64,000 nt of DNA from an uncultured Lachnospiraceae bacterium. Lineage in GTDB: Bacteria > Bacillota > Clostridia > Lachnospirales > Lachnospiraceae. Below, piece by piece: positions 7,899-18,719 of the stretch. The stretch covers positions 1-64,000 of the forward strand of contig CACWLA010000004.1 of the NCBI GenBank assembly GCA_902761665.1, in the 5' to 3' direction. The translations under genes were made by a program, and so were the position numbers. Under the pieces are notes generated by a model. It had not been told where the DNA came from and made no database searches. It saw only the letters and a program-made list of their open reading frames with translations. Numbering within the stretch: the first letter of the stretch is position 1; every line of letters begins with the position of its first letter.

Positions 7899-8001
7899 GC
7901 CCGACCGCCTCTGAAACAGGCAAAACGCGTCCGCTTTTCGGCGGATGCTCATAAGAAAGTTTTGATTAAAAAAATCTGGGCATCTGTCTGACAAGGTTGG
8001 C

Positions 8002-8048
8002 AAAAACAGAATCCCGGACTGTTGTATCTCTGCAGCAGTCCGGGATTC
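8002..8048 (-). terminator. Terminator of the bla-like operon, possibly bidirectional
   Basis: A perfect 12-bp stem (8009-8020 with 8037-8048, GAATCCCGGACT/AGTCCGGGATTC) is followed on the minus strand by a T run at 8002-8006. It sits between the convergent zinc-ribbon gene and the membrane-protein gene ending at 8087. Confidence 0.8.
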
Positions 8049-8086
8049 TTATCTCTATTGTCTCAGAGTTAATCCGCGGTATAGTT

Positions 8087-9046
8087 TTATATCTTGCCAT
8101 CTTTGTTTAAGAGGCGGCAAATTAACAGCGAGATTCCACCTGAAGCGAGAATGACAAGAATATCTATAGGCGCCAATACCAGCTTCCCTAATCCCTCAAA
8201 CAAAAACCCACTTCCAAATCTGTACAGATTTCCGCTGAGCAAGATCATCTCGCCGATATACATGGCAATTGTCACTATAGCAGCGATTGCTGTTGGAAGT
8301 GCCAGCGAGAGCAGTTTCCTTTTCCCCATAGTAAACGACCCGGTATATACGCCCATTGTTATACCCAAGAGGGCAAAGAACACAGCCATCAGTACGGCAG
8401 AAAGCGGAGAAACTGTTATCTCTCCAGTCCGATAGAAAGCGGTAAAACAAGCCCAGATACACATCCCCAGAAACGCCGCGCTAGTTATCGTCTGTACGAC
8501 CAGTGCTTTTTTCCTGCTATGATCGCCGGTTCGAATCATCTTGGCAATGCCGTAAAAGCAATTCAGAAGCGATACGATAATCACGACAGATATCAGATAA
8601 AAATGGATCTTAAAGGCTGGGCTGTACCCACCCAGAAGCACATCCACGGCCTCCCAAGTCCTGGTTTCAAACTGTTCCGGTGGAATGTAACATAATGACA
8701 TCTGCCAGCTTTCCAGTGGGATTAGTTCCTGCGTCTGAACCAGGACTTTAGTCTCCATGATCCTTTCAGCCAGAAAAAATACGGCAATGGAAGTAATAGA
8801 GCCAAAGAGCAAATCAAGCTTCCTGGACAGTCTTTGGAACAAAGGAATTAACAGTACGCCCACGATCAGAGCAATCGCAATCGGTGTATATGGAATGATG
8901 TACTTCGGGTATTCCTCGATAGGAACCGCTCCGTTCTGCACCATTTTTGTAATAACGCTTATACCCATATACAGTGGGTAAATAGAAACAGCAACGGCTA
9001 CCGCAAGAGAATACCAACAATACTTTTTATAATTAGTATTACTCAT
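8087..9046 (-). CDS. Polytopic membrane protein of the BlaI/M56 operon, unknown function
   Basis: The 319-residue protein is strongly hydrophobic, with about seven to eight candidate membrane helices (first at residues 12-32, last near 285-308) and no recognised catalytic motif. It is the last gene of a minus-strand operon (blaI-like, M56 peptidase, lipoprotein, this gene) and follows the lipoprotein stop by three bases, with an AAGGGA ribosome-binding site. Its base composition is AT-richer than the surrounding chromosome, as is the whole operon. It may be an effector, transporter or immunity-type partner of the sensor pair. I do not recognise the family. Confidence 0.75.
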   Translation of the reverse strand: MSNTNYKKYCWYSLAVAVAVSIYPLYMGISVITKMVQNGAVPIEEYPKYIIPYTPIAIALIVGVLLIPLFQRLSRKLDLLFGSITSIAVFFLAERIMETKVLVQTQELIPLESWQMSLCYIPPEQFETRTWEAVDVLLGGYSPAFKIHFYLISVVIIVSLLNCFYGIAKMIRTGDHSRKKALVVQTITSAAFLGMCIWACFTAFYRTGEITVSPLSAVLMAVFFALLGITMGVYTGSFTMGKRKLLSLALPTAIAAIVTIAMYIGEMILLSGNLYRFGSGFLFEGLGKLVLAPIDILVILASGGISLLICRLLNKDGKI

Positions 9047-9049
9047 GGT

Positions 9050-9694
9050 TTATTTTCCCTTCCATCCCAGATAGTTTCTATACACCGTGAAGTGCTTATA
9101 CCCTGCAACTAATTGTGAACTTACCATCCCGGCCCAAATACCTTCCCACGTCGCTGTAGGATCGTCCACAAGAACATAGTTATCATAGCTTGAGTACAGG
9201 GCGGTAGAAGAAGGAGCATCTCCAGTAAAATGAAGGAGATATTTGAATGATTCCTGATAGTCCACCGCCTCCACAGTACTTTCGCGCACCTTCACGGAGT
9301 ATTCCGTTCCATCGTATTCTACCAGATAGAAGAACAGCTTTGGATATTTATCTTTTAATTCTTCGTATAATTCTGCGCTGTTATGCTCTTTATCAAGAAC
9401 GTAGTAATCGGCGCAAAGGACTGATGCCGGGGTCCCGTTACTGACGGTCTGGAAGAATGTATCCCAAGTCTCATTTCCAGAAGTGCATCCCTGCCGTTCA
9501 AAAACAGGTATATTTGATTTTCTGGCCAACTCCAGCGCATCATCAGCAGAGCATACAGTTTGGAAAAGGGCCTCAAGATCCTGATTTGTATTATGGGACA
9601 TCGTATTTTCCTCACTATTCCCTTTATCTACTGAGCACGAGGCAAGCATAACAACAGCAAGCACAGCCAGCAATATGATCATTGTTTTCCTCAT
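9050..9694 (-). CDS. Putative lipoprotein of the BlaI/M56 operon
   Basis: The 214-residue product begins with a short basic N-terminus, a hydrophobic stretch and the lipobox LASC, which predicts a lipid-anchored extracellular protein. The start at 9694 follows AGGAGG by six bases; an upstream in-frame ATG that overlaps the previous gene has no such site. The mature part is charged and soluble with no motif I recognise. Because it is co-transcribed with a membrane metallopeptidase and a repressor, it could be the extracellular sensing or effector component; this is inference. Confidence 0.75.
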   Translation of the reverse strand: MRKTMIILLAVLAVVMLASCSVDKGNSEENTMSHNTNQDLEALFQTVCSADDALELARKSNIPVFERQGCTSGNETWDTFFQTVSNGTPASVLCADYYVLDKEHNSAELYEELKDKYPKLFFYLVEYDGTEYSVKVRESTVEAVDYQESFKYLLHFTGDAPSSTALYSSYDNYVLVDDPTATWEGIWAGMVSSQLVAGYKHFTVYRNYLGWKGK

Positions 9695-9707
9695 GTTGAA
9701 CCTCCTC

Positions 9708-10622
9708 TTATCCCGCATTAGTCAGCAGAGTATAGATGATCGCAATGATCAACAAAGCGAATCCAACGCTGGAAACTAATGTCATCTGCTTATATGACAG
9801 GACGTTTTCAATTCTTGTCCGGACTTTTGCTCCGCCAAAAGCAGAAACAAATACGTTTTTATTCTGGACACAATTCAAAAGCGTTCGAGCGTATTCTTTA
9901 CGTTCTTCATCGGTATATTTGGAAACAGCCTTCTCGTCACATGCCAGCTCCAAATCTGCAAGAAACACCTTCAGAAACAGCCAAGACAGCGGATTAAACC
10001 AATGAACTGCTGTCAGTAGAACCCCTATCAACCTCCAAAGATTGTCACAGCGCCGGATGTGAGTCCTCTCATGCTGCAACACATATTCCCGATCCGTATC
10101 TGCAAAAGATGCAGGCAAAACGATCTTGGGTTTTATAATTCCATATACTGCCGGGCTTTCGATTTTCTCGGACAAATACACATTCGGGTCCAGTAGACGC
10201 GAATCTTTAATTTCACGCTTCGTAGCCATATACAGTATTGCCAAGGCGATAATGATTGCCAACGTACCAATGAGCCAGATAAACCCTGCAATTTCAAAGA
10301 CTCTGCTGAGCATATTGACCTTATATGTAATAGGGAAATAGCTGTTTGCAGCCATAATGGCGTTAGTCATAGAAAGAGTTAAGTCATCAGCAGGCTGTAA
10401 AACAGTTACTGTCTTTGTGGTAAACCGTGATATGAGAGTCATTAGACTGTATGGACTGTTTATGCCAAAAGGGATGCACATCCGTAAAAACGGAATGACC
10501 CACAGAAATACCGACACTCTGTGAGGAATGAATTTAACTTTCCGTATAGCCAAAACCAGTAGACCCATTACAGAAGCAACAATGCTCATATTGAAGATCC
10601 AATAGCAACACTCACCAATCAT
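9708..10622 (-). CDS. M56 family (BlaR1/MecR1-like) membrane metallopeptidase without sensor domain
   Basis: The 304-residue protein has four N-terminal-half membrane helices and the zinc-metalloprotease motif HERTHIRRCDNLWR (HExxH) near residue 190, followed by LACDEKAVSKY, which supplies the third ligand region (ELACD). This is the BlaR1 protease core. Unlike staphylococcal BlaR1 (about 600 residues) it stops after one last helix and has no penicillin-binding sensor domain. It presumably cleaves the neighbouring BlaI-like repressor on an unknown stimulus. It begins just downstream of blaI. No beta-lactamase is adjacent, so a link to beta-lactam resistance is not supported. Confidence 0.9.
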   Translation of the reverse strand: MIGECCYWIFNMSIVASVMGLLVLAIRKVKFIPHRVSVFLWVIPFLRMCIPFGINSPYSLMTLISRFTTKTVTVLQPADDLTLSMTNAIMAANSYFPITYKVNMLSRVFEIAGFIWLIGTLAIIIALAILYMATKREIKDSRLLDPNVYLSEKIESPAVYGIIKPKIVLPASFADTDREYVLQHERTHIRRCDNLWRLIGVLLTAVHWFNPLSWLFLKVFLADLELACDEKAVSKYTDEERKEYARTLLNCVQNKNVFVSAFGGAKVRTRIENVLSYKQMTLVSSVGFALLIIAIIYTLLTNAG

Positions 10623-10628
10623 AATGCG

Positions 10629-10985
10629 TCACCTTTTATCAATGAGGTCCCGGAGTTCCTTAATCTCAGTATCTGACAAATCTTCATCTTCGAGCAATGC
10701 TGAAAACAGTGCCTTGCGTGACCCGCCAAAAACCTTGTTCAACAATGACACGGCTTCTTTCTTCTGCATTTCTTCCTGTGAAACTAACGGCGTGCAGATG
10801 AATCCAGGATCAGTACGTTTGATAAAACCTTTTGATTCAAGTTTTTTAATTACCGTATAGGTCGTGTTTTTATTCCATCCAATAGAATCTGCGGCAATCA
10901 AACTGATTTCTTTTGCAGAAAGAGGTCCTCTATTCCAGATGATTTCCATAACTTTGGCTTCACTGTCAAATAGCTTTTCTTTCAT
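10629..10985 (-). CDS. BlaI/MecI/CopY family transcriptional repressor
   Basis: The 118-residue protein has the winged-helix N-terminal domain (AKVMEIIWNRGPLSAKEI ... NTTYTVIKKLESKGFI) and a C-terminal dimerisation helix region, typical of BlaI/MecI. It is the first gene of the operon and precedes the M56 peptidase that would inactivate it by proteolysis. The ATG follows GGAGGTG. Two inverted repeats with ACTA/TAGT ends in the promoter (10998-11031) resemble BlaI-type operators, so autorepression is likely. Confidence 0.93.
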   Translation of the reverse strand: MKEKLFDSEAKVMEIIWNRGPLSAKEISLIAADSIGWNKNTTYTVIKKLESKGFIKRTDPGFICTPLVSQEEMQKKEAVSLLNKVFGGSRKALFSALLEDEDLSDTEIKELRDLIDKR

Positions 10986-10997
10986 AACAGCACCTCC

Positions 10998-11044
10998 AGA
11001 CTATTTGCGTAGTCTATACTATCACAATAGTCCAGATTTGTCAA
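10998..11044 (-). promoter_or_regulatory. Promoter with two BlaI-like operator dyads
   Basis: On the minus strand the promoter is TTGACA (11039-11044), a 17-base spacer and TAGTAT (11016-11021). Dyad 1, ACTATCACAATAGT, spans 11018-11031 and overlaps the -10 and spacer. Dyad 2, AGACTA-N6-TAGTCT, spans 10998-11015 just downstream. Both have the ACTA...TAGT half-sites known from BlaI/MecI operators. Repressor binding here would block RNA polymerase. Confidence 0.8.
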
Positions 11045-11242
11045 ATGCCAAATATAGAATTGTGTAAAAACCAGAAAACGGTCTTTCCCCGCCTCTAACC
11101 TCAATCAAACAAGGCAAAAGGCTATATGAACGCAATTGTCATTTTCCTGATAATGTCGCTTTAGCGTTTTGCAAAAAACGCGCAGCTCACACGAAGTGTG
11201 ATCACTGGGTTTGGGAGGTGTTCGGGGCGAGCCGGTGCAGAA

Positions 11243-11369
11243 ATTGCGCGCAGGTCCGGATCTGTACACTGCTTGTCAAGTACTGAACAGCCATCCGGAC
11301 ATTCGCGCAATTGTGCAAAACCTGTATGTGCAGGCCCTGCTTGCCAGGTACTGAAAGCCTGGCAAGCAG
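11243..11369. repeat. Nested inverted repeats at the left border of the recombinase remnant
   Basis: A 19-base arm at 11243-11261 matches the reverse complement of 11293-11311 at 17 positions. A second, perfect 12-bp inverted repeat pairs 11337-11348 (CTGCTTGCCAGG) with 11358-11369. The two units share the near-identical text CTGCTTGYCARGTACTGAA as a direct repeat (about 11269 and 11337). The block lies exactly where recombinase homology stops. It could be an inserted small repeat element. The stretch 11045-11242 before it holds no gene I can support, only two tiny hairpins. Confidence 0.6.
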
Positions 11370-11372
11370 TAA

Positions 11373-11885
11373 CATCTTAAGGAAGTCATCTGGTACGTAG
11401 GCCACTATGAAAGTCATTTCAGGTCAATTATGGAGTCCAAGCTGAAAAGCGAAAGCAGGGAGATCCTTCGTGCCAGGCAAAAGCAGCTTGAAAAGGACGA
11501 GAAGCGCATTGCAGAATTGGATTGTCTCTTCGTCCGACTCTACGAAGACAATGTGGCATCCCGGATCAGTGATGACCGCTTCGCCATGATGAGCCGGGCC
11601 CATGAAGAAGAGCAGCGAGAACTGAAAGCGGAAGCCGAAGTCTTACGGCAGGAAATTGAAACACAGGAACAACAGAACCATAATCTTGAACTTTTCACTC
11701 AGAAGGTCAGAAAGTACGCAGAACTAACAGAATTGACGCCATACGCAGCGCATGAGCTGATCAAGGCAATCTATGTCGGGGCTCCGGATAAAAGCAGCGG
11801 AAAACGCCGTCAGAGCATCCATATCTGCTATGATCTGATAGGGTTCATCCCGCTGAGTGAACTGATGGAACAGGAAATGGCATGA
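11373..11885 (+). pseudogene. 3' remnant of a large serine recombinase (DUF4368 end)
   Basis: The frame from 11373 to the stop at 11885 reads like the C-terminal third of a TnpX/Tn4451-type large serine recombinase. It has LKEVIWYVGHYE, then a coiled-coil with AELDCLFVRLYEDN, then a DUF4368-type end with ELTPYAAHELIKAIYVG. A TAA immediately precedes the homology, and the catalytic N-terminal resolvase domain and zinc-ribbon region are absent. An internal ATG at 11430 could start a 151-residue protein, but no ribosome-binding site is evident and such a fragment could not recombine DNA. It probably marks a decayed integrative element. A terminator follows at 11931. Confidence 0.82.
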
Positions 11886-11930
11886 CCCGAAGATCATGTC
11901 ATTCCTGAAAACTATAAAACTGTTTTATGA

Positions 11931-11967
11931 GGGCCGCCCCTTCTGGGCGCGTTTTTTATTTTTTTGG
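11931..11967 (+). terminator. Terminator after the recombinase remnant
   Basis: A GC-rich hairpin (CGCCC at 11935-11939 pairing with GGGCG at 11945-11949) is followed by GTTTTTTATTTTTTT. It separates the remnant from the TIR gene. Confidence 0.7.
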
Positions 11968-11991
11968 TAGATTACTGGAAAAATCTATGAT
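11964..11991 (+). promoter_or_regulatory. Candidate promoter of the TIR gene
   Basis: TTGGTA (11964-11969), a 16-base spacer and TATGAT (11986-11991) lie 36 bases before the TIR start. The -35 is weak, overlaps the T tract of the preceding terminator, and is the least certain part. Confidence 0.45.
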
Positions 11992-12027
11992 AACATTATT
12001 TTAACGACGACAAGGAGGCAGATCAAT

Positions 12028-14772
12028 ATGGAACAGCAATCCTACTGCGCGTTTATCAGTTACCGGCACCAGTCGCCGGACCAGGAGATCGCGAAGGCGC
12101 TGCATACGGCGATCGAGACCTACGGGATCCCGGGAAGCGTCCGCAAACAGACAGGCAAAAAACGCATGGGCAAGGTATTCCGCGATCAGGAAGAACTGCC
12201 TTTGTCGTCGGATCTCGGGGCAGACATCGAGGCGGCACTGGACTGCAGCGAATGGTTCATCGCGATCTGTTCGCCGCGCTATCTCGAAAGCAAATGGTGC
12301 CTCAGGGAACTTGAGTATTTCATCGAACACAAGGGGCGCGACCGCGTGCTGACCGTGCTTGTCGAGGGTGAACCTCAGGACAGTTTCCCGGAGATGATCC
12401 GTTTTGCGGAAAATGCCGACGGAACCAGAACGGAGCTCGAGCCCCTTGCCGGCGACGTACGTGCCGAAACGCCCGCGAAAAGTATCGCCAAGCTGAAAAA
12501 TGAAAAACTGCGCATTCTCGCACCGATGCTCGGACTGGGCTTCGATGATCTGAAGCGCCGCGCCAGACAGCGGAAGATCCGCATCACAGCGGCGGTCAGT
12601 TCGGCGGTCCTTATTGCGGCGGCGGCATTTACCGTCTTCCTGATCGTCAATCATAAGCGCAATGAAGCGCTCAGGCGCGAAGCGGAGGCGCAGGCAAGCA
12701 TCGCGGCGGAGCAGTCAAGACTGGCCGAAGAGGAACAGCGCCGTGCCGCAGAAGAACAGCGCCGCGCCGAAGAGGAGCAGCGCCGCGCCGAGGAGGAACG
12801 CAAAAACGCGGTCCGAAACGACCTCGGCGAACGGATGGAGCGCGCACGGGCCTCACTCGACAGCGGAGAAAAGCGTGAGGCAGCAAAGATCCTCGCAGAC
12901 GCCCTTGACATCAGTGAGCAGAACGAAGGCATGCGCCGTGACGAGCTGCTTGCCCTGATGCGCCGTACGATGTACATTGAGCCGTTCTCGGTCGTCTCCA
13001 GTTTCAACAACCAGAACATGCAGCTGCTTTACATCGAGTCGTCGCCGGACGGCACGCGGGCAGTCGGCGTGGTCAACAACCACTCGATCGCCATGGTCGA
13101 CCTGGTGAACAATGAGATCCTGTATACCGTATCCGCGGACAACGCGATCATGATGTATCCCCGCTTTTCCGAAGACGGAACGCGTTTTCTGGCCGACTGC
13201 GATTACGGCCGCTTCGTGCAGGTCTGGAACACGGAAGACGGATCGGAAGCTTTCCGCTACACGAGCAAGACGGACAAGGCGTACGAGATCGTCAACGTCT
13301 GCTTCTGGAAAGACAGCCGGACGCTCCTCCTGCAGGACGCAGACAAGTTCCTGCTGGTCGGCGATGACGGCAGTGAAAAGCTGTTCTATACCGTCGGGAC
13401 GCAGATGGACGATTACGATCCGAACAACAATTTCCTGACGCGCCTGATGAACGCGCCTCTGGATAAGCTCTTCACGAACGTTGCCGACGGCTACGCCATG
13501 CAGATGCTGGTATCGCCGGACCGGGAGCGCATCGTCCTCACCGGCAAAGCAGGCGAGATCGCCGTCATCGTACTGGACGGCGAAGGGAAACGGATCTTCA
13601 TCCCGGCTCTGCCGAACGATCCGAGCTGCATGGTGCCGGGCACCTTTGCGGATAAGTGGGCTCTCTCACCGGACGGAAAGACCCTGTGCCTCCTTTCCAT
13701 GTACCATGTCATTGCTGGATGGGACGTGGATACCGGAAACATGCTTTTCATCGATTACGTTGAAAGCGAAAATTCCTGGGCCATGCCGTCACAGCCGGTC
13801 TATTCACCGGATTCCGCGCTTTTTGCCTATACCTACGGTCCGAAACTGTATGTCGCCGACGCCAGAACGAATGAAGCGATCCTGACCGCGAACATCGACG
13901 ACACCAATTATACGCCGTCGCTCTCCTTCTCTTCCGACGGCAAGCACTTCCTCATGACCAACGAAGCGATGTTCATCATCAACGCGGAGACCTGGGTCCC
14001 GGAACTCATCGAATCGGCAGAGGGCACGAATTTCAACGGCATCATCCCGATGGATAGCATGGTGCTCGGTTCACGCTACGACGGCGTGATCAATTTCTAC
14101 AGCCTGCCGAAGCTCGCGTCAGTAACTGCAGTTGACAGTTTTGCCGGAGCGCTCATGGAACCGTACCGTGCGCAGCGGGCCGTCGAATGTGTTTCGCTCT
14201 TCGGTCAGCACGAACTCTCACCGACATTTAAGCAAACCAATTTCTACAAGGACTATCCGTCCAAGATGGCTTTCTCATGCGACGGCGGCACTGCCGCGAT
14301 CCTGTATCCTGACGGTACGATCGAACTGTTCGATACGCAGGGAGACGGCAAGGTCCGGGATACGATCGGTCAGCTGTATACCTACATCAACACGGCCGCG
14401 ATCTCGGAGGACCGCCTGATCGCGATCGACATGGATACGCGCATGATGGTCTACAACATGAAGACGAAATCCGTGGAGAAGATCTGGAAGAACGAAACGC
14501 AGTACGCGGCGTTTTCCTTCAATGCGGATGCCAGCCTGATGACGGCGCTGTGCCAGGGGCAGACAAAGATCGACGTCTTCGATCTGAATGACGGCTGCCG
14601 TCTGCTCTTCTCCATGCACGCCGACGAACCCTTCGCGGAAGCAACGTTCTCCGAAGACGGTGCGTACGCAGTCGGCAGGACTGAATCAGGTTCTTATGTG
14701 ATCGGGGATCTGTTTGCCGATGAAGAGGCGCTGGTCGAACGCCTGCGCACGTTTGCGGCAGGCTCGGAATGA
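12028..14772 (+). CDS. TIR-transmembrane-coiled coil-beta-propeller protein
   Basis: The 914-residue protein has four parts. A TIR domain (about 6-140) begins with CAFISYRH and contains SKWCLRELEYF, where Glu94 in the WCxxE pattern is the likely NADase glutamate. A single membrane helix spans about 187-208. A charged coiled coil (about 210-265) has EEQRRAE heptads. The rest (about 320-910) is a WD40/PD40-like propeller with SPDGTRAV, FSEDGTRFLADC, LSPDGKTLC and SFSSDGKHFLM blades. Bacterial TIR domains cleave NAD+ or make cyclic ADP-ribose signals in defence, or act as scaffolds. An AAGGAGG site precedes the ATG. It converges on the SLOG and HD-RyR genes. Its function is not established by sequence. 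Confidence 0.85.
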   Translation: MEQQSYCAFISYRHQSPDQEIAKALHTAIETYGIPGSVRKQTGKKRMGKVFRDQEELPLSSDLGADIEAALDCSEWFIAICSPRYLESKWCLRELEYFIEHKGRDRVLTVLVEGEPQDSFPEMIRFAENADGTRTELEPLAGDVRAETPAKSIAKLKNEKLRILAPMLGLGFDDLKRRARQRKIRITAAVSSAVLIAAAAFTVFLIVNHKRNEALRREAEAQASIAAEQSRLAEEEQRRAAEEQRRAEEEQRRAEEERKNAVRNDLGERMERARASLDSGEKREAAKILADALDISEQNEGMRRDELLALMRRTMYIEPFSVVSSFNNQNMQLLYIESSPDGTRAVGVVNNHSIAMVDLVNNEILYTVSADNAIMMYPRFSEDGTRFLADCDYGRFVQVWNTEDGSEAFRYTSKTDKAYEIVNVCFWKDSRTLLLQDADKFLLVGDDGSEKLFYTVGTQMDDYDPNNNFLTRLMNAPLDKLFTNVADGYAMQMLVSPDRERIVLTGKAGEIAVIVLDGEGKRIFIPALPNDPSCMVPGTFADKWALSPDGKTLCLLSMYHVIAGWDVDTGNMLFIDYVESENSWAMPSQPVYSPDSALFAYTYGPKLYVADARTNEAILTANIDDTNYTPSLSFSSDGKHFLMTNEAMFIINAETWVPELIESAEGTNFNGIIPMDSMVLGSRYDGVINFYSLPKLASVTAVDSFAGALMEPYRAQRAVECVSLFGQHELSPTFKQTNFYKDYPSKMAFSCDGGTAAILYPDGTIELFDTQGDGKVRDTIGQLYTYINTAAISEDRLIAIDMDTRMMVYNMKTKSVEKIWKNETQYAAFSFNADASLMTALCQGQTKIDVFDLNDGCRLLFSMHADEPFAEATFSEDGAYAVGRTESGSYVIGDLFADEEALVERLRTFAAGSE
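12730..12813 (+). repeat. 21-base tandem repeat coding the coiled coil
   Basis: Three near-identical 21-base units (12730-12750, 12751-12771, 12772-12792) and a degenerate fourth encode EEQRRA(A/E). The unit length equals one heptad, so copy changes would keep both frame and coiled-coil register. Confidence 0.8.
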
Positions 14773-14786
14773 CCTCTCCGGCACGA

Positions 14787-14820
14787 AAAAGCCCCGTCCG
14801 CGGCTGCGGACGGGGCTTTT
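14787..14820. terminator. Bidirectional terminator between TIR and SLOG genes
   Basis: A perfect 15-bp stem (14787-14801 with 14806-14820) has a four-base loop; its A and T ends give a T tract in both directions. It serves the two convergent transcripts ending at 14772 and 14841. Confidence 0.92.
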
Positions 14821-14840
14821 ATCGTATTTATCTCAAAACG

Positions 14841-16436
14841 TTACAGATTGAAGTCAGCCGTATTGTCGCGCTGGTAGGAACACCAGTTTCCGTTCTCGAT
14901 CAGTTCCTCGCGGGCGATGAGAAGAAGCAGAGCGGGGGTCTCGCCGTAACGGTCGATGCGCTCCAGGGCTTCCCGGTAAAAGCGTTCCATTTTGGCATGG
15001 TCGGATGTCACCCGCGAAAGCGAGAGGCGGCCGTAATAATTTGAAATGAACAGCGCCCCCGCCGAGATGCTGCCGAGGATGAGTTTGGACAGCGTACGGT
15101 ACGTTTCCGCTGCGGATATGCTGCGGGAGAACGGCAGCAGGCCGCCCCAGATGATCTCAAAGGCCAGTACGGCCAGATAGAGCAGAATGCTGATCCGCAG
15201 GGCAATGCCGACGATCCGTTCGCTCCCTTCGTACGCGCGCCTCGAGCGTCCGATCGCCCCCTGATGGTACCTTCGCTGCTGATCCACCCATACGTCCCGT
15301 ATGCGGTGAACGGCTGCCGGCCTGCCGGCGATGACGCAGGTCTTCAGCGCACAGACGACCCATTCGGCCTCGGTCTTTGCTGACCACGGAAGGATCTCCG
15401 CAGCGGATCCGCTGCTTCCGGCATAGCGCAGCAGTGCCTGTACCCGCAGTCCCTCCGCAAGCATCCGGTATTCCAGATAGCGCCGGTGCGAGGCAGCGCG
15501 CATTTCGCGCCGCCGCAGGAAAAAGGCAAGGAGCAGCATGGCCCCGCAGACAAGGATCATCCAGTATACGCCAGCCTCATCGTAAAGCAGAAAGGCGACC
15601 GTGATGACCGTGCTGACGATGGCCAGCGCGGCAAGAAGTTTCCGGTACTGTCCCGCAAAGCGGATGCTCAGGGCGTCCGCTTTTGCGTACAGTGATTCCA
15701 TCCTGTCCAGGCATGCATCCGCTTCACGCGCCGCAGGCAGCAGATCGTGCTGCGGCTGTGCTTCCTCTGCTGCAAGTTTGTTGAACTCATCGGTACGCGC
15801 CAGAACCTCCTCAAAGGCAGCCGCGTCTCCGAGGAAACGAAGCATTCCTGCGTCCGCGGCGCCTTCATCACCCATACGCGGCGTCTTAACGTGCCATACG
15901 GGGCAGCTTCCTCCCAGCGGGATCGCATTTTTCGGTTCGTACGCGCCCTCCAGAGCAAAGCGTACGGTTTCGGCGGTACCGCAGTGCGACGGGGCTGATT
16001 CTTTTCCGTCCCACAGCGCCAGCAGCACGTGCGCATGCGACGCGATGTAGATGCCGGCCTGCCGGTAGGCAAAATCCCTGTCCGGCGAAGGCGGTGCCTC
16101 CTCCGTTTCGGGTGCGGTAAAGCACTCTTCTGCCGCGCTGCAGAGGGTCCGGAAATGCAGCAGTTCCTCCCCGGAAAAGACCTTCTCGTACTCCTCCCTG
16201 GCCATCGGCAGGACAGCGATCAGCGGGATCGAGAGTTTGCGCGCGGCTTCCGCGCAGAGCTGATCCGCGCCCGCCGCAAGGCTGTTCAGCATGACGATCC
16301 CGGAATGCGGACACTTTTCGCGGAGCGCCTGAAGTTCCTTCATCACGGCGCTCTCCAGCCTGTCACGGTCTTCGCTTCGAATGTCCCGATGCCCCGTCAC
16401 GCCGACGACGATCGGAACCGTATCACGCAGTACCAT
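14841..16436 (-). CDS. SLOG domain protein with C-terminal SLATT-like membrane region
   Basis: The 531-residue protein starts with a Rossmann-like SLOG/LOG-type nucleotide-binding domain (about 8-185). Its motifs are VVGVTGHRDI, NSLAAGADQLCAEAA, LPMAREEYEKVF and a later LLALWDGK...GTAE loop. After a helical linker come two membrane helices (about 267-285 and 290-306), the segment HRRYLEYRMLAEGLRVQ, and two more helices (about 410-432 and 451-466). Paired helices followed by such a helical segment recall SLATT domains, the predicted pore modules of nucleotide-activated conflict systems. It lies 13 bases after the HD-RyR gene and is probably co-transcribed. The SLATT assignment is tentative. 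Confidence 0.75.
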   Translation of the reverse strand: MVLRDTVPIVVGVTGHRDIRSEDRDRLESAVMKELQALREKCPHSGIVMLNSLAAGADQLCAEAARKLSIPLIAVLPMAREEYEKVFSGEELLHFRTLCSAAEECFTAPETEEAPPSPDRDFAYRQAGIYIASHAHVLLALWDGKESAPSHCGTAETVRFALEGAYEPKNAIPLGGSCPVWHVKTPRMGDEGAADAGMLRFLGDAAAFEEVLARTDEFNKLAAEEAQPQHDLLPAAREADACLDRMESLYAKADALSIRFAGQYRKLLAALAIVSTVITVAFLLYDEAGVYWMILVCGAMLLLAFFLRRREMRAASHRRYLEYRMLAEGLRVQALLRYAGSSGSAAEILPWSAKTEAEWVVCALKTCVIAGRPAAVHRIRDVWVDQQRRYHQGAIGRSRRAYEGSERIVGIALRISILLYLAVLAFEIIWGGLLPFSRSISAAETYRTLSKLILGSISAGALFISNYYGRLSLSRVTSDHAKMERFYREALERIDRYGETPALLLLIAREELIENGNWCSYQRDNTADFNL

Positions 16437-16449
16437 ACCGTCTCCTTTT

Positions 16450-18480
16450 TCAGTCGAGTTTATAGATCCGCAGTCCGTCGAACTTGCGGATCAGCTTCAG
16501 CATGGAGTTGAACGGCTTCCAGTCCTTGCCCTGGTCCGCTTCGGACAGCTGCAGATAATGCCGCGCGATCTCGAGTTCGCCGAAATCGCCGTTTATGCAC
16601 AGTTTGTGCTGCCGCATCTGTTCCCGCAGCGCGGAGCGGTCTGTTTCCTGTTCCGGCACGGCAGTCTCATAGAGGTTCCCCGCCGTCCAGCCCATTGCGC
16701 GGTGCGCACGGAGCCAGCGGGCATGTTCCATCGGTGCAAACACGGCGCACTGCTCTTCGGTAAACGCGCGGAGCATCTCAAAGTCGACGGGACGGTCCGT
16801 ATAGAAGCAGCCGATCGCGTTCAGGTATTTCGCAAAGCTCTTGACCTGATTGATGTTGCTCAGCTGATATTCCAGGGACATCTCATCGAAATCGCGCTCG
16901 AGCTGTTCCGCCGGGATCTCCTCTTCTCTGCCCTCATACCGGTAGCGTCCGTTGATCGACACGGCAAAATCGTACATGTGCAGGAAACTGCTGCCGGAAA
17001 GATAGGTGTGCTTGCTCTTTCTGTCCGCAGCGCGCATGAACGTCGTGACGAACAGGGGATAGGCGGAAAGATCGACAATCTTTTCAATATCCGTGCGGAA
17101 GCGCTGTTCCTTCTCCGCCATGTCACTGTAGGCCTTCAGGCGGGGCGGGGCTCCCGCAGAGCCGTTCTGCTCCCAGGCGCGGTAATCCGCTTCGTACCGG
17201 CCTATCTTTTCAGATTCCTCGGCGTCAAAACAGTAGAGCGCGTGGATCATGCCCCTGCCGAAATCGAACTCCGCATCCATCGGATGCAGCTCAATGCGTG
17301 AATTTCTGCCGTAGGCGGTGCGGTCCCAGCACTGCAGTTCGTCGCACAGCATCAGAAGGTACGCCAACGGATGCAGTTCCGCCTTCAGCGGCGCCCTGCG
17401 TTTTTCCTTGTCCTTATAAAAGGCAATGGCGAACTTGAACATGCTGTTGTGCAGCATGATCGCCGTCAGCGCGTCGACGTGTCCTTCGGTGATCCGCTCT
17501 TCGCCGAGCACCTCGGCAAGTTCCTGATAGAGTCTCGTGGCGCTGAAATAGGCGTGATCCATGAAATAGCCGAAGCGGTCCGGTTCGGTCGGTTTGCTGC
17601 GGATCGTATCCAGGAGATAATTCTCCGACACGCCGTATGCTGCGCCGAGCCGTTTTTCGATCCCGTATGCCAGCAGTGCTTCGACGGAATCGAACGGACG
17701 GCCGAACAGATCCGCAAAGTGCTGTTTCGCCGCGTCGCTCATGCCGGACAGGCAGCCAAGATCCCGGTAAGCAAGGAACAAACTGCCCGGACCGCGTTTC
17801 CTGCGGTCGACTTCAAAATACGCCAGCACCTGTTCAAACGGGATCTCAAACGGATAGCCGATGTCATGGAACAAGGCCGTCAATCCCCAGAATTCAAGGA
17901 AGAATGCCGCGGCAGCATGCTCGTCCCGTTCAGGCACGAAACCGTAGAAGGTCTGAAAGGTCCTGCGGAACTGCTCGTTCGTTTCGTAGATCGCAAGTCC
18001 CAGCGCAAACACGTAGACCGAGTGCGAATAATGGTCGCGGTGCTTCATCAGAAGCGTGCTGGCGTTCGATTCAAACTCGGACAGCAGCTCGATCATCTTG
18101 CTCGACTGCCCGTAAGTCCCCACGAACATCCTCAAAAAACTGTAATAGACGGTATAAGCGTCCTCCGCAAAACCGGAGCCGATGAAGTTCTCCAGTTCGC
18201 GCTCGAGGCAGAGACGGTCGATGTCCATCTGCATGTCGTACGGGATCTGATTCCGTGAGACTGCCGTGCCCAGATACCGTCCGGTCCGCACTTCTTCCTC
18301 CGTCTTTTCAGGCGAGAAGCGGAGGCCTTCGCAGCGCTCATGCAGAAAGCGCAGTGCTGCGGACCTGAGGTCATTCCCCGCTCTTCCCGCGCCGTAAAGG
18401 GCCGGTTCAAACGGTCCGACGTCCGTACCGAAACGCTGCCTGTTCACTTTTCTCATCTGTTCCAATGCGGTATATGCCAT
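16450..18480 (-). CDS. HD-domain protein with C-terminal RyR-like domain
   Basis: The 676-residue protein has HD phosphohydrolase-type residues: His in HRDHYSHSVYV (about 150-153), His205-Asp206 in LFHDIGYPFE, His344 in LHNSMFKF, and Asp380 in LLMLCDELQCWDR. HD enzymes usually hydrolyse phosphate esters of nucleotides. The C-terminal 90 residues (about 585-672), starting MEHARWLRAHRAMGWTAG and containing LSEADQGKDWKPF, look like a RyR domain, a predicted nucleotide-binding module. The N-terminal 90 and middle 400-570 residues are unassigned. It is first in an operon with the SLOG-membrane gene. Substrate and partner are unknown. Confidence 0.78.
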   Translation of the reverse strand: MAYTALEQMRKVNRQRFGTDVGPFEPALYGAGRAGNDLRSAALRFLHERCEGLRFSPEKTEEEVRTGRYLGTAVSRNQIPYDMQMDIDRLCLERELENFIGSGFAEDAYTVYYSFLRMFVGTYGQSSKMIELLSEFESNASTLLMKHRDHYSHSVYVFALGLAIYETNEQFRRTFQTFYGFVPERDEHAAAAFFLEFWGLTALFHDIGYPFEIPFEQVLAYFEVDRRKRGPGSLFLAYRDLGCLSGMSDAAKQHFADLFGRPFDSVEALLAYGIEKRLGAAYGVSENYLLDTIRSKPTEPDRFGYFMDHAYFSATRLYQELAEVLGEERITEGHVDALTAIMLHNSMFKFAIAFYKDKEKRRAPLKAELHPLAYLLMLCDELQCWDRTAYGRNSRIELHPMDAEFDFGRGMIHALYCFDAEESEKIGRYEADYRAWEQNGSAGAPPRLKAYSDMAEKEQRFRTDIEKIVDLSAYPLFVTTFMRAADRKSKHTYLSGSSFLHMYDFAVSINGRYRYEGREEEIPAEQLERDFDEMSLEYQLSNINQVKSFAKYLNAIGCFYTDRPVDFEMLRAFTEEQCAVFAPMEHARWLRAHRAMGWTAGNLYETAVPEQETDRSALREQMRQHKLCINGDFGELEIARHYLQLSEADQGKDWKPFNSMLKLIRKFDGLRIYKLD

Positions 18481-18719
18481 GATGCTGTCTCCTCATCCAG
18501 TTCTGAACTTCAGGGTCCGTGCCCTTTTTTCGCACGCTCCGGCCGTACGGCCGGCTTTGTGATTTCATTTTAATTTAGCCGCATGACGCCGTCAAGGGAT
18601 TCTTTTGCCGCACGCCCGGCGGGTTCCGAATGACAAACGGAAAAGTATCTGCTATGATGGTTCCGTATAGGCATCTGCCAATAAAAACAAGGACCGCTGA
18701 AAGCAGCTGAGGAGGCACC
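18481..18719. promoter_or_regulatory. Divergent intergenic region with HAD promoter and a 16-bp palindrome
   Basis: This spacer separates the divergent HD-RyR and HAD genes. For the HAD gene, ATGACA (18630-18635), a 17-base spacer and TATGAT (18653-18658) form a good promoter. A perfect palindrome CCGGCCGTACGGCCGG lies at 18539-18554, about 60 bases upstream of the HD-RyR start; it could be an operator or part of a leader hairpin. I found no convincing minus-strand promoter. Confidence 0.55.

Follow-up and report, generated by a model that had tools for sequence, protein, structure and literature searches.

A TIR-linked HD-RyR locus in an uncultured Lachnospiraceae bacterium suggests a modular branch of bacterial immune signaling

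What do a TIR-TM-propeller protein, a SLOG protein with membrane helices, and an HD-motif protein with an RyR domain do side by side in an uncultured Lachnospiraceae bacterium? Their genes lie in a stretch of 64,000 nucleotides analyzed here as a whole (the window; positions 1 to 64,000 of contig CACWLA010000004.1, assembly GCA_902761665.1). An earlier, sequence-only reading had placed the TIR gene convergent on a two-gene operon, and the open reading frames of all three genes were found where that reading had put them:

12028..14772, plus strand: TIR-TM-propeller gene, 914 aa (TIR_2 match, TM helix at residues 189-207, charged coil, WD40-type propeller region)
14787..14820, no strand: 15-pair terminator-like hairpin between the convergent TIR and SLOG-SLATT genes
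14841..16436, minus strand: gene for a SLOG protein with a DUF4231/SLATT-type membrane part, 531 aa (profile and fold matches)
16450..18480, minus strand: gene for an HD-motif protein with a C-terminal RyR (R12) domain, 676 aa (HD motif, RyR family match)
18567..18595, minus strand: sigma-70-like promoter, a consensus match only, upstream of the two-gene operon

The arrangement first read from the sequence is confirmed. The minus-strand SLOG-SLATT and HD-RyR genes are only 13 bp apart and therefore probably form a single operon, which converges on the TIR gene across the hairpin. The region holds 20 terminator-like sites versus 6.8 expected, and this hairpin has the longest stem of them; sigma-70-like promoter matches number 5 versus 2.8 +/- 1.8 expected.

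The TIR protein of the window matches Pfam TIR_2 at 1e-13. Its single TM helix is followed by the charged coil and then by WD40-type propeller matches between residues 322 and 888, every one of which is below the Pfam cut-off. The candidate catalytic residues are Glu94 and Glu96, and the choice between them is guided by SARM1-type TIRs. Among 53 HD-RyR loci with a TIR gene (see below), 52 encode at least one TIR domain with Glu at one of the two candidate columns; the exception (L044) reads WVRKE, with the alignment one step off. Since the candidate Glu is absent from 25/92 TIR domains, second, degenerate TIRs are common.

The HD-RyR product had been called an HD phosphohydrolase with an RyR-like tail. 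The HD motif of the window protein is complete (H150/H153, H205-D206, H309, H344, and D380). In 88 aligned HD-RyR rows, H205 and D206 are present in 88/88, H153 is present in 87/88, and H309, H344, and D380 are present in 87, the remaining row being gapped; these six residues are also retained by relatives at 25-29% identity. The conservation of HD and TIR catalytic residues that the sequence-only reading presupposed is thus borne out in both families. Resemblance to established HD proteins is weak. Pfam HD was matched by 8/48 family members (best, 0.014), hhalign against six HD proteins encoded in that genome gave 12.6% (control alignment, 0.5%), a PDB sequence search with the HD part gave no match to an HD structure, and the Foldseek matches, to PDE2A and dGTPase, were nonsignificant (E of 0.3 or worse). 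The HD part likely belongs to the HD superfamily, a membership that rests on the motif. The protein has no PADLOC model and no NCBIfam name, and its structure model is of good quality, with a pLDDT of 84 and a pTM of 0.90.

The RyR-like tail can be assigned through the family. The window protein by itself gave no Pfam match; RyR (PF02026) was matched by 33/48 family members (E <= 1; best, 1.1e-5) and, in a wider set, by 4/8 (best, 1.4e-17). Among structures, the family profile matched the RyR-like 3nrt (1.6e-10) as well as RyR structures from animals. Via the 3nrt alignment, H586, W589, H625, and D653 fall on the positions of H75, W78, H100, and D117 of the phage protein RyDEP, and the 3nrt spacing (+3, +25, +42, counted by hand) is that of RyDEP. 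Among the ungapped cells of the 88 HD-RyR rows, H586 and W589 are each kept in 87/87, H625 in 84/85, and D653 in 86/87. Of the 79 references computed, the A3 set comprises 48.

A 2026 preprint describes phage RyDEP proteins that bind cADPR made by TIRs and cleave it; of the homologues tested, 6/8 bound the signals, and the others tested are described as not cutting them (PMC13232231). Because the RyDEP domain cuts its signal, a receptor role is not the sole role that an RyR domain may have. HD-RyR might then be an off-switch, its RyR and HD parts breaking down the TIR signal in the manner of a ring nuclease and so keeping SLOG-SLATT shut or the TIR NADase harmless. HD-RyR retains the two catalytic residues of RyDEP (as H586 and D653), so that it may destroy the signal in addition to, or instead of, receiving it, and HD enzymes hydrolyze phosphoesters. 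We consider this reading unlikely: in 37/79 loci the TIR and HD-RyR genes have no SLATT partner within 6 kb, which would leave TIR as the sole effector; RyR domains are elsewhere fused to outputs (ion channels and RelA/SpoT); and the homologues tested in the preprint speak more for binding than for cutting. The same fusions speak for a receiver role of RyR, and the same 37 loci suggest that HD-RyR is itself an output. The sequence-only reading had HD-RyR or TIR making or removing a signal; by its look, the RyR tail is more probably the receiver for a TIR product than a part of a signal-making enzyme.

The SLOG protein had been described as a SLOG-type domain fused to four membrane helices. Its matches to YAcAr (6e-4) and to DUF4231 (1e-3), which we take to be SLATT, are both below the cut-off. 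Among the 13 aligned SLOG-SLATT members, window included, YAcAr was matched by 10 and DUF4231 by 12 (E <= 0.1), with a best DUF4231 E of 5.4e-5; the NCBIfam SLATT_3 match is at 0.051. The SLOG part (about residues 8-222) has a Rossmann fold, finds its best fold match in YpsA (2nx2, 2.9e-5), and also matches ShosA (8zva, 1.5e-3), and the PADLOC ShosA model matches 4/13 members (best, 9e-4); the likeness to these proteins covers the SLOG fold and not the membrane part. The latter has helices in 241-314 and 380-467. Three are clear by hydropathy (267-285, 289-307, and 408-426), and 443-467 is a helix in the structure model only (pLDDT, 86; pTM, 0.85), so we count three helices and one probable one. 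The SLOG domain and three helices of the original description are therefore retained, and its fourth helix is a prediction of the model. In some loci, the membrane part is encoded on its own, with no SLOG domain (about 315-390 aa in uncut copies), and the one such protein tested matched DUF4231 at only 0.005. By analogy, we propose that the SLOG-SLATT protein is a signal-gated membrane effector.

Both minus-strand genes are rare in the family. HD-RyR is patchy, occurring in 8/200 genomes, and full SLOG-SLATT occurs in 3/200, all 3 of them among the 8 with HD-RyR (P = 4e-5, or 1e-3 without the window's own genome).

The wider neighborhood was surveyed with the best 80 of 371 HD-RyR relatives, mostly from MAGs of uncultured Clostridia and Erysipelotrichia, many of them from rumen or gut. 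One duplicate (L029, whose contig is identical to that of L011) was dropped, which left 79 distinct loci, many of them cut by contig ends; the fragments L001-L009 were also left out. Loci were found by six-frame searches. Within 6 kb of HD-RyR, a TIR gene is present in 53 of these 79 loci and a SLATT or SLOG-SLATT gene is present in 26: both partners occur in 16 loci, TIR only in 37, SLATT/SLOG-SLATT only in 10, and neither in 16. Among the 79 loci, the most frequent pairing is that of HD-RyR and TIR. Where at least 6 kb is available on each side (46/79), 37 loci have TIR, 17 have SLATT/SLOG-SLATT, 13 have both, and 5 have neither. The sequence-only reading had joined the three proteins in one arrangement, of which the linkage holds and the fixed set does not. 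We therefore reject a fixed three-gene system, as both partners accompany HD-RyR in only the 16 loci and the other parts swap.

Distance adds to this picture. Across 88 loci (the 79, 8 further ones, and the window) there are 86 TIR genes within 10 kb of HD-RyR, 54 in the first kb and 7 at 6-10 kb, and TIR density per kb of flank is 0.32 in the first kb versus 0.016 at 6-10 kb. This sharp profile rules out a chance neighborhood of HD-RyR and TIR. Homologues scattered so as never to lie within a few kb of each other, an outcome that the sequence-only reading had named as adverse, are the opposite of what was found, and the co-occurrence that it had suggested looking for in other genomes is present for both partners. 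When relatives are grouped by identity, at least one TIR-linked member is found in 52/74 groups at 90%, 38/52 at 80%, and 11/13 at 70%.

Because the HD-RyR loci themselves had served to seed and iterate the TIR profile used above, we rechecked the linkage genome-wide with Pfam TIR_2. Of 10 genomes (the window's and nine others), 6 have a TIR_2 gene no more than 6 kb from HD-RyR; in 5 of the 6, the window's included, the TIR_2 gene of the locus is the only one in the genome. Those other than the window's are G075, G080, G194, and G035, and in G517 one of two TIR_2 genes is at the locus. G134 and G466 have TIR_2 genes on contigs other than that of HD-RyR (in G134, TIR and SLOG-SLATT are together on a separate contig), and G050 and G123 have no TIR_2 genome-wide, G050 having DUF4062 instead and the HD-RyR of G123 being a fragment. 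A further 21 genomes were hand-picked, six of them deliberately without TIR near HD-RyR, and positions were matched by hand; in this set, 17/78 TIR_2 matches are in the HD-RyR locus, spread over 15 genomes, one of them (L023) 6.7 kb or more from HD-RyR. These genomes have 0 to 22 TIR_2 matches each. That of L064, where HD-RyR is present, has no TIR_2 match anywhere, those of L019, L062, L075, L090, and L097 have TIR_2 genes solely elsewhere, and that of L018, the nearest relative in the 79-locus set, has two further TIR_2 genes.

These data bear on a second alternative, in which TIR would be an effector acting by NAD+ depletion and HD-RyR with SLOG-SLATT would be a separate module found on the same islands as TIR genes. 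In its favor, several HD-RyR genomes are rich in TIR genes, 16/79 HD-RyR loci lack both partners within 6 kb, and the TIR gene comes and goes among close relatives: L019 keeps HD-RyR and SLOG-SLATT and has no TIR gene because window positions 7934-14842 are missing there. Arguing the other way are the 54/86 TIR genes within 1 kb, the 5/10 genomes whose sole TIR_2 gene sits at the HD-RyR locus, and L095, which retains the link despite a TIR-propeller gene on the opposite side of HD-RyR and on the same strand as it. We consider a separate module quite improbable.

The TIR-linked sensor part varies among loci, being WD40-type in the window and L095, LRR in L011, and TPR in L015 and L081, so that TIR is the part that is kept. 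Beside the HD-RyR gene of G050 is a gene for a MORN-DUF4062-TPR protein (DUF4062, 3.6e-13). DUF4062 is described as a TIR-like NADase and, in Swarozyc, as a portal-activated one (PMC13174449). The likeness to Swarozyc lies in this DUF4062 neighbor of HD-RyR in G050 and in a second one, next to a TM-RyR protein, in G175 (DUF4062, 1.7e-11); "RyR" is absent from the main text of the Swarozyc paper.

RyR domains also occur on other outputs near TIR. Beside TIR genes, L124 and L173 encode proteins with Ion_trans_2 (2.7e-13 and 5.7e-16) and RyR (1.5e-8 and 2.7e-6), and beside a TIR-LRR gene L125 encodes RelA_SpoT (3.6e-14) with RyR (4.3e-9). Membrane proteins with RyR adjoin TIR or DUF4062 in L118, L120, L126, and L128, the RyR match being below the cut-off in L120 and L126. 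L188 has a lone 93-aa RyR protein directly before a 969-aa TIR protein, for which no Pfam propeller match was found. Any RCK-like reading was made by eye, and Pfam TrkA_N was matched weakly and once (0.004). In 294 genomes of the order there are 31 RyR places, some of which lie on short contigs (3.6 and 5.3 kb); TIR is present in the fetched region in 12/31 versus 0/14 control stretches (P = 0.005), controls that are few, one of 15 obtained (1.5 kb) having been left out, and places that are not independent, because genus g201 has TIR nearby in 2/11. Further RyR places have a TIR-type gene in G175 (DUF4062), G087, G058, G013, and G190 and none in the fetched region in G049, G151, G021, and G160; G165, G154, and G176 were left out of the neighbor count.

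TIR, SLOG, and SLATT are already known parts of predicted nucleotide-centered systems, and the nucleotide-centered conflict character first read from the locus is upheld by parts that are linked across loci and by the kept HD-motif and TIR residues. ThsA binds its signal at SLOG. In Thoeris, a TIR-made cADPR isomer activates a SLOG-bearing effector (PMC11204291, PMC7272460). The locus resembles type I Thoeris (ThsB TIR and ThsA SIR2-SLOG) in this logic of TIR signal and receiver-effector. However, it adds a possible second receiver, RyR, fused to an HD-motif protein, joins SLOG to membrane helices in one protein, and has a TIR that carries a TM helix and propeller. As the three proteins gave no SIR2 or macro match, and the ThsB model was matched only at 0.028, we liken the locus to Thoeris and do not identify it as such. 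Burroughs, Aravind, and colleagues reportedly set out TIR-SLATT and SLOG/SLATT conflict systems in 2015. Descriptions of these pair a nucleotide maker with SLATT as a predicted signal-responsive membrane effector (PMC9503650, PMC7159879). Unlike them, the window locus has an RyR-HD partner, though the 2015 paper may list part of the arrangement. With RyDEP the locus shares the R12 domain family (PF02026) and the four ligand/catalytic positions, but RyDEP stands alone as a domain in phages, where it acts against Thoeris, whereas the window RyR is bacterial, HD-fused, and TIR-linked (PMC13232231). A bacterial HD-RyR/TIR system was found neither in PADLOC nor in the open-licence literature searched; the 2015 predictions could mention it.

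A third alternative is that the locus serves a host nucleotide or NAD+ stress pathway rather than phage defense. HD-RyR has no PADLOC model, its link to phage is putative, and some HD-RyR genes stand alone amid metabolic genes; set against this, patchy occurrence (8/200), partner swapping, and repeat-type sensors are the usual signs of conflict systems. We judge a stress pathway to be rather unlikely. An origin of the locus in a phage or plasmid was also considered and rejected: HD-RyR relatives were found in a single phage record (8.3 kb, without annotation; 38% identity), in 2 viral contigs (one a 22% partial match), and in no plasmid.

We give about an even chance to what we regard as the best explanation of the whole, a modular TIR-to-RyR signaling system. 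In such a system, a trigger would be sensed by the propeller of the TIR protein, which is anchored in the membrane. The TIR domain would use NAD+ to make a signal of the ADP-ribose type; its kept Glu and known TIR biochemistry suggest this step and, as the probable product, a cADPR isomer. The RyR domain may bind this signal through the conserved H586, W589, H625, and D653 and thereby switch on the HD hydrolase, which would attack a cellular nucleotide. Where present, SLOG could read the same signal and act on the membrane through its SLATT-type part, by analogy with ThsA and with what is predicted for SLATT. The infected cell would probably be arrested or die. On the strength of its sequence features, the locus suggests a new branch of bacterial immune signaling and, if the signaling system is real, RyR would be a new receiver domain and HD a new output for TIR immunity.

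A broader proposition is that bacterial RyR domains in general are receivers of TIR-made signals, placed on swappable outputs (the HD-motif enzyme, ion channel, RelA/SpoT, and other membrane proteins) that neighbor TIR genes; we advance it tentatively, as a possibility that we would not yet favor. The RyR domain is shared with the ryanodine-receptor calcium channels of animals, and the mode of cADPR action on these receptors has long been open. The RyDEP preprint raises this question for the R12 domain (PMC13232231). A TIR enzyme and RyR-fused effectors in one bacterial locus make a small, testable system. If the proposition is true, bacterial immunity would hold an ancient counterpart of the animal cADPR-ryanodine receptor axis, with a TIR enzyme and an RyR-bearing channel already side by side.

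Between close relatives, the TIR gene varies by presence or absence: it is present in L018 (whose genome is the nearest named relative) and L031, whereas L019, near its positions 13635-13731, is without it by comparison with these two and retains the genes for HD-RyR and SLOG-SLATT. In the window, the TIR gene starts about 80 bp beyond the end of a low-GC stretch.

Window 7942-11944: low-GC stretch, 4.0 kb, with a BlaI-like repressor and an M56/BlaR1-type peptidase, plus a recombinase-type remnant (DUF4368)

This stretch is missing in L018, a relative with 92-95% identity, and looks like a recent insertion.

TIR genes also occur as tandem pairs (L011:12173-14160, and in L041, L042, L047, L049 and L053), and in each pair one TIR has the candidate catalytic Glu and the other lacks it. 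The 3.3-Mb genome of L081 has 22 TIR_2 matches, well above every other genome searched.

Other loci carry the RyR domain on other outputs, with TIR proteins nearby.

L124:4247-10126: RyR domain fused to an ion channel (TVGYGD), TIR proteins adjoining
L173:6583-12620: RyR domain fused to an ion channel (TVGYGD), TIR proteins adjoining
L176:7941-13620: consecutive HD-RyR, TIR and membrane RyR proteins, all on the same strand
L125:5894-10050: RelA_SpoT + HD_4-like + RyR protein of 925 aa, TIR-LRR protein immediately adjoining

At L176, one TIR is thus accompanied by two RyR proteins whose outputs are unlike each other. The 925-aa protein of L125 is possibly a signal-gated alarmone enzyme.
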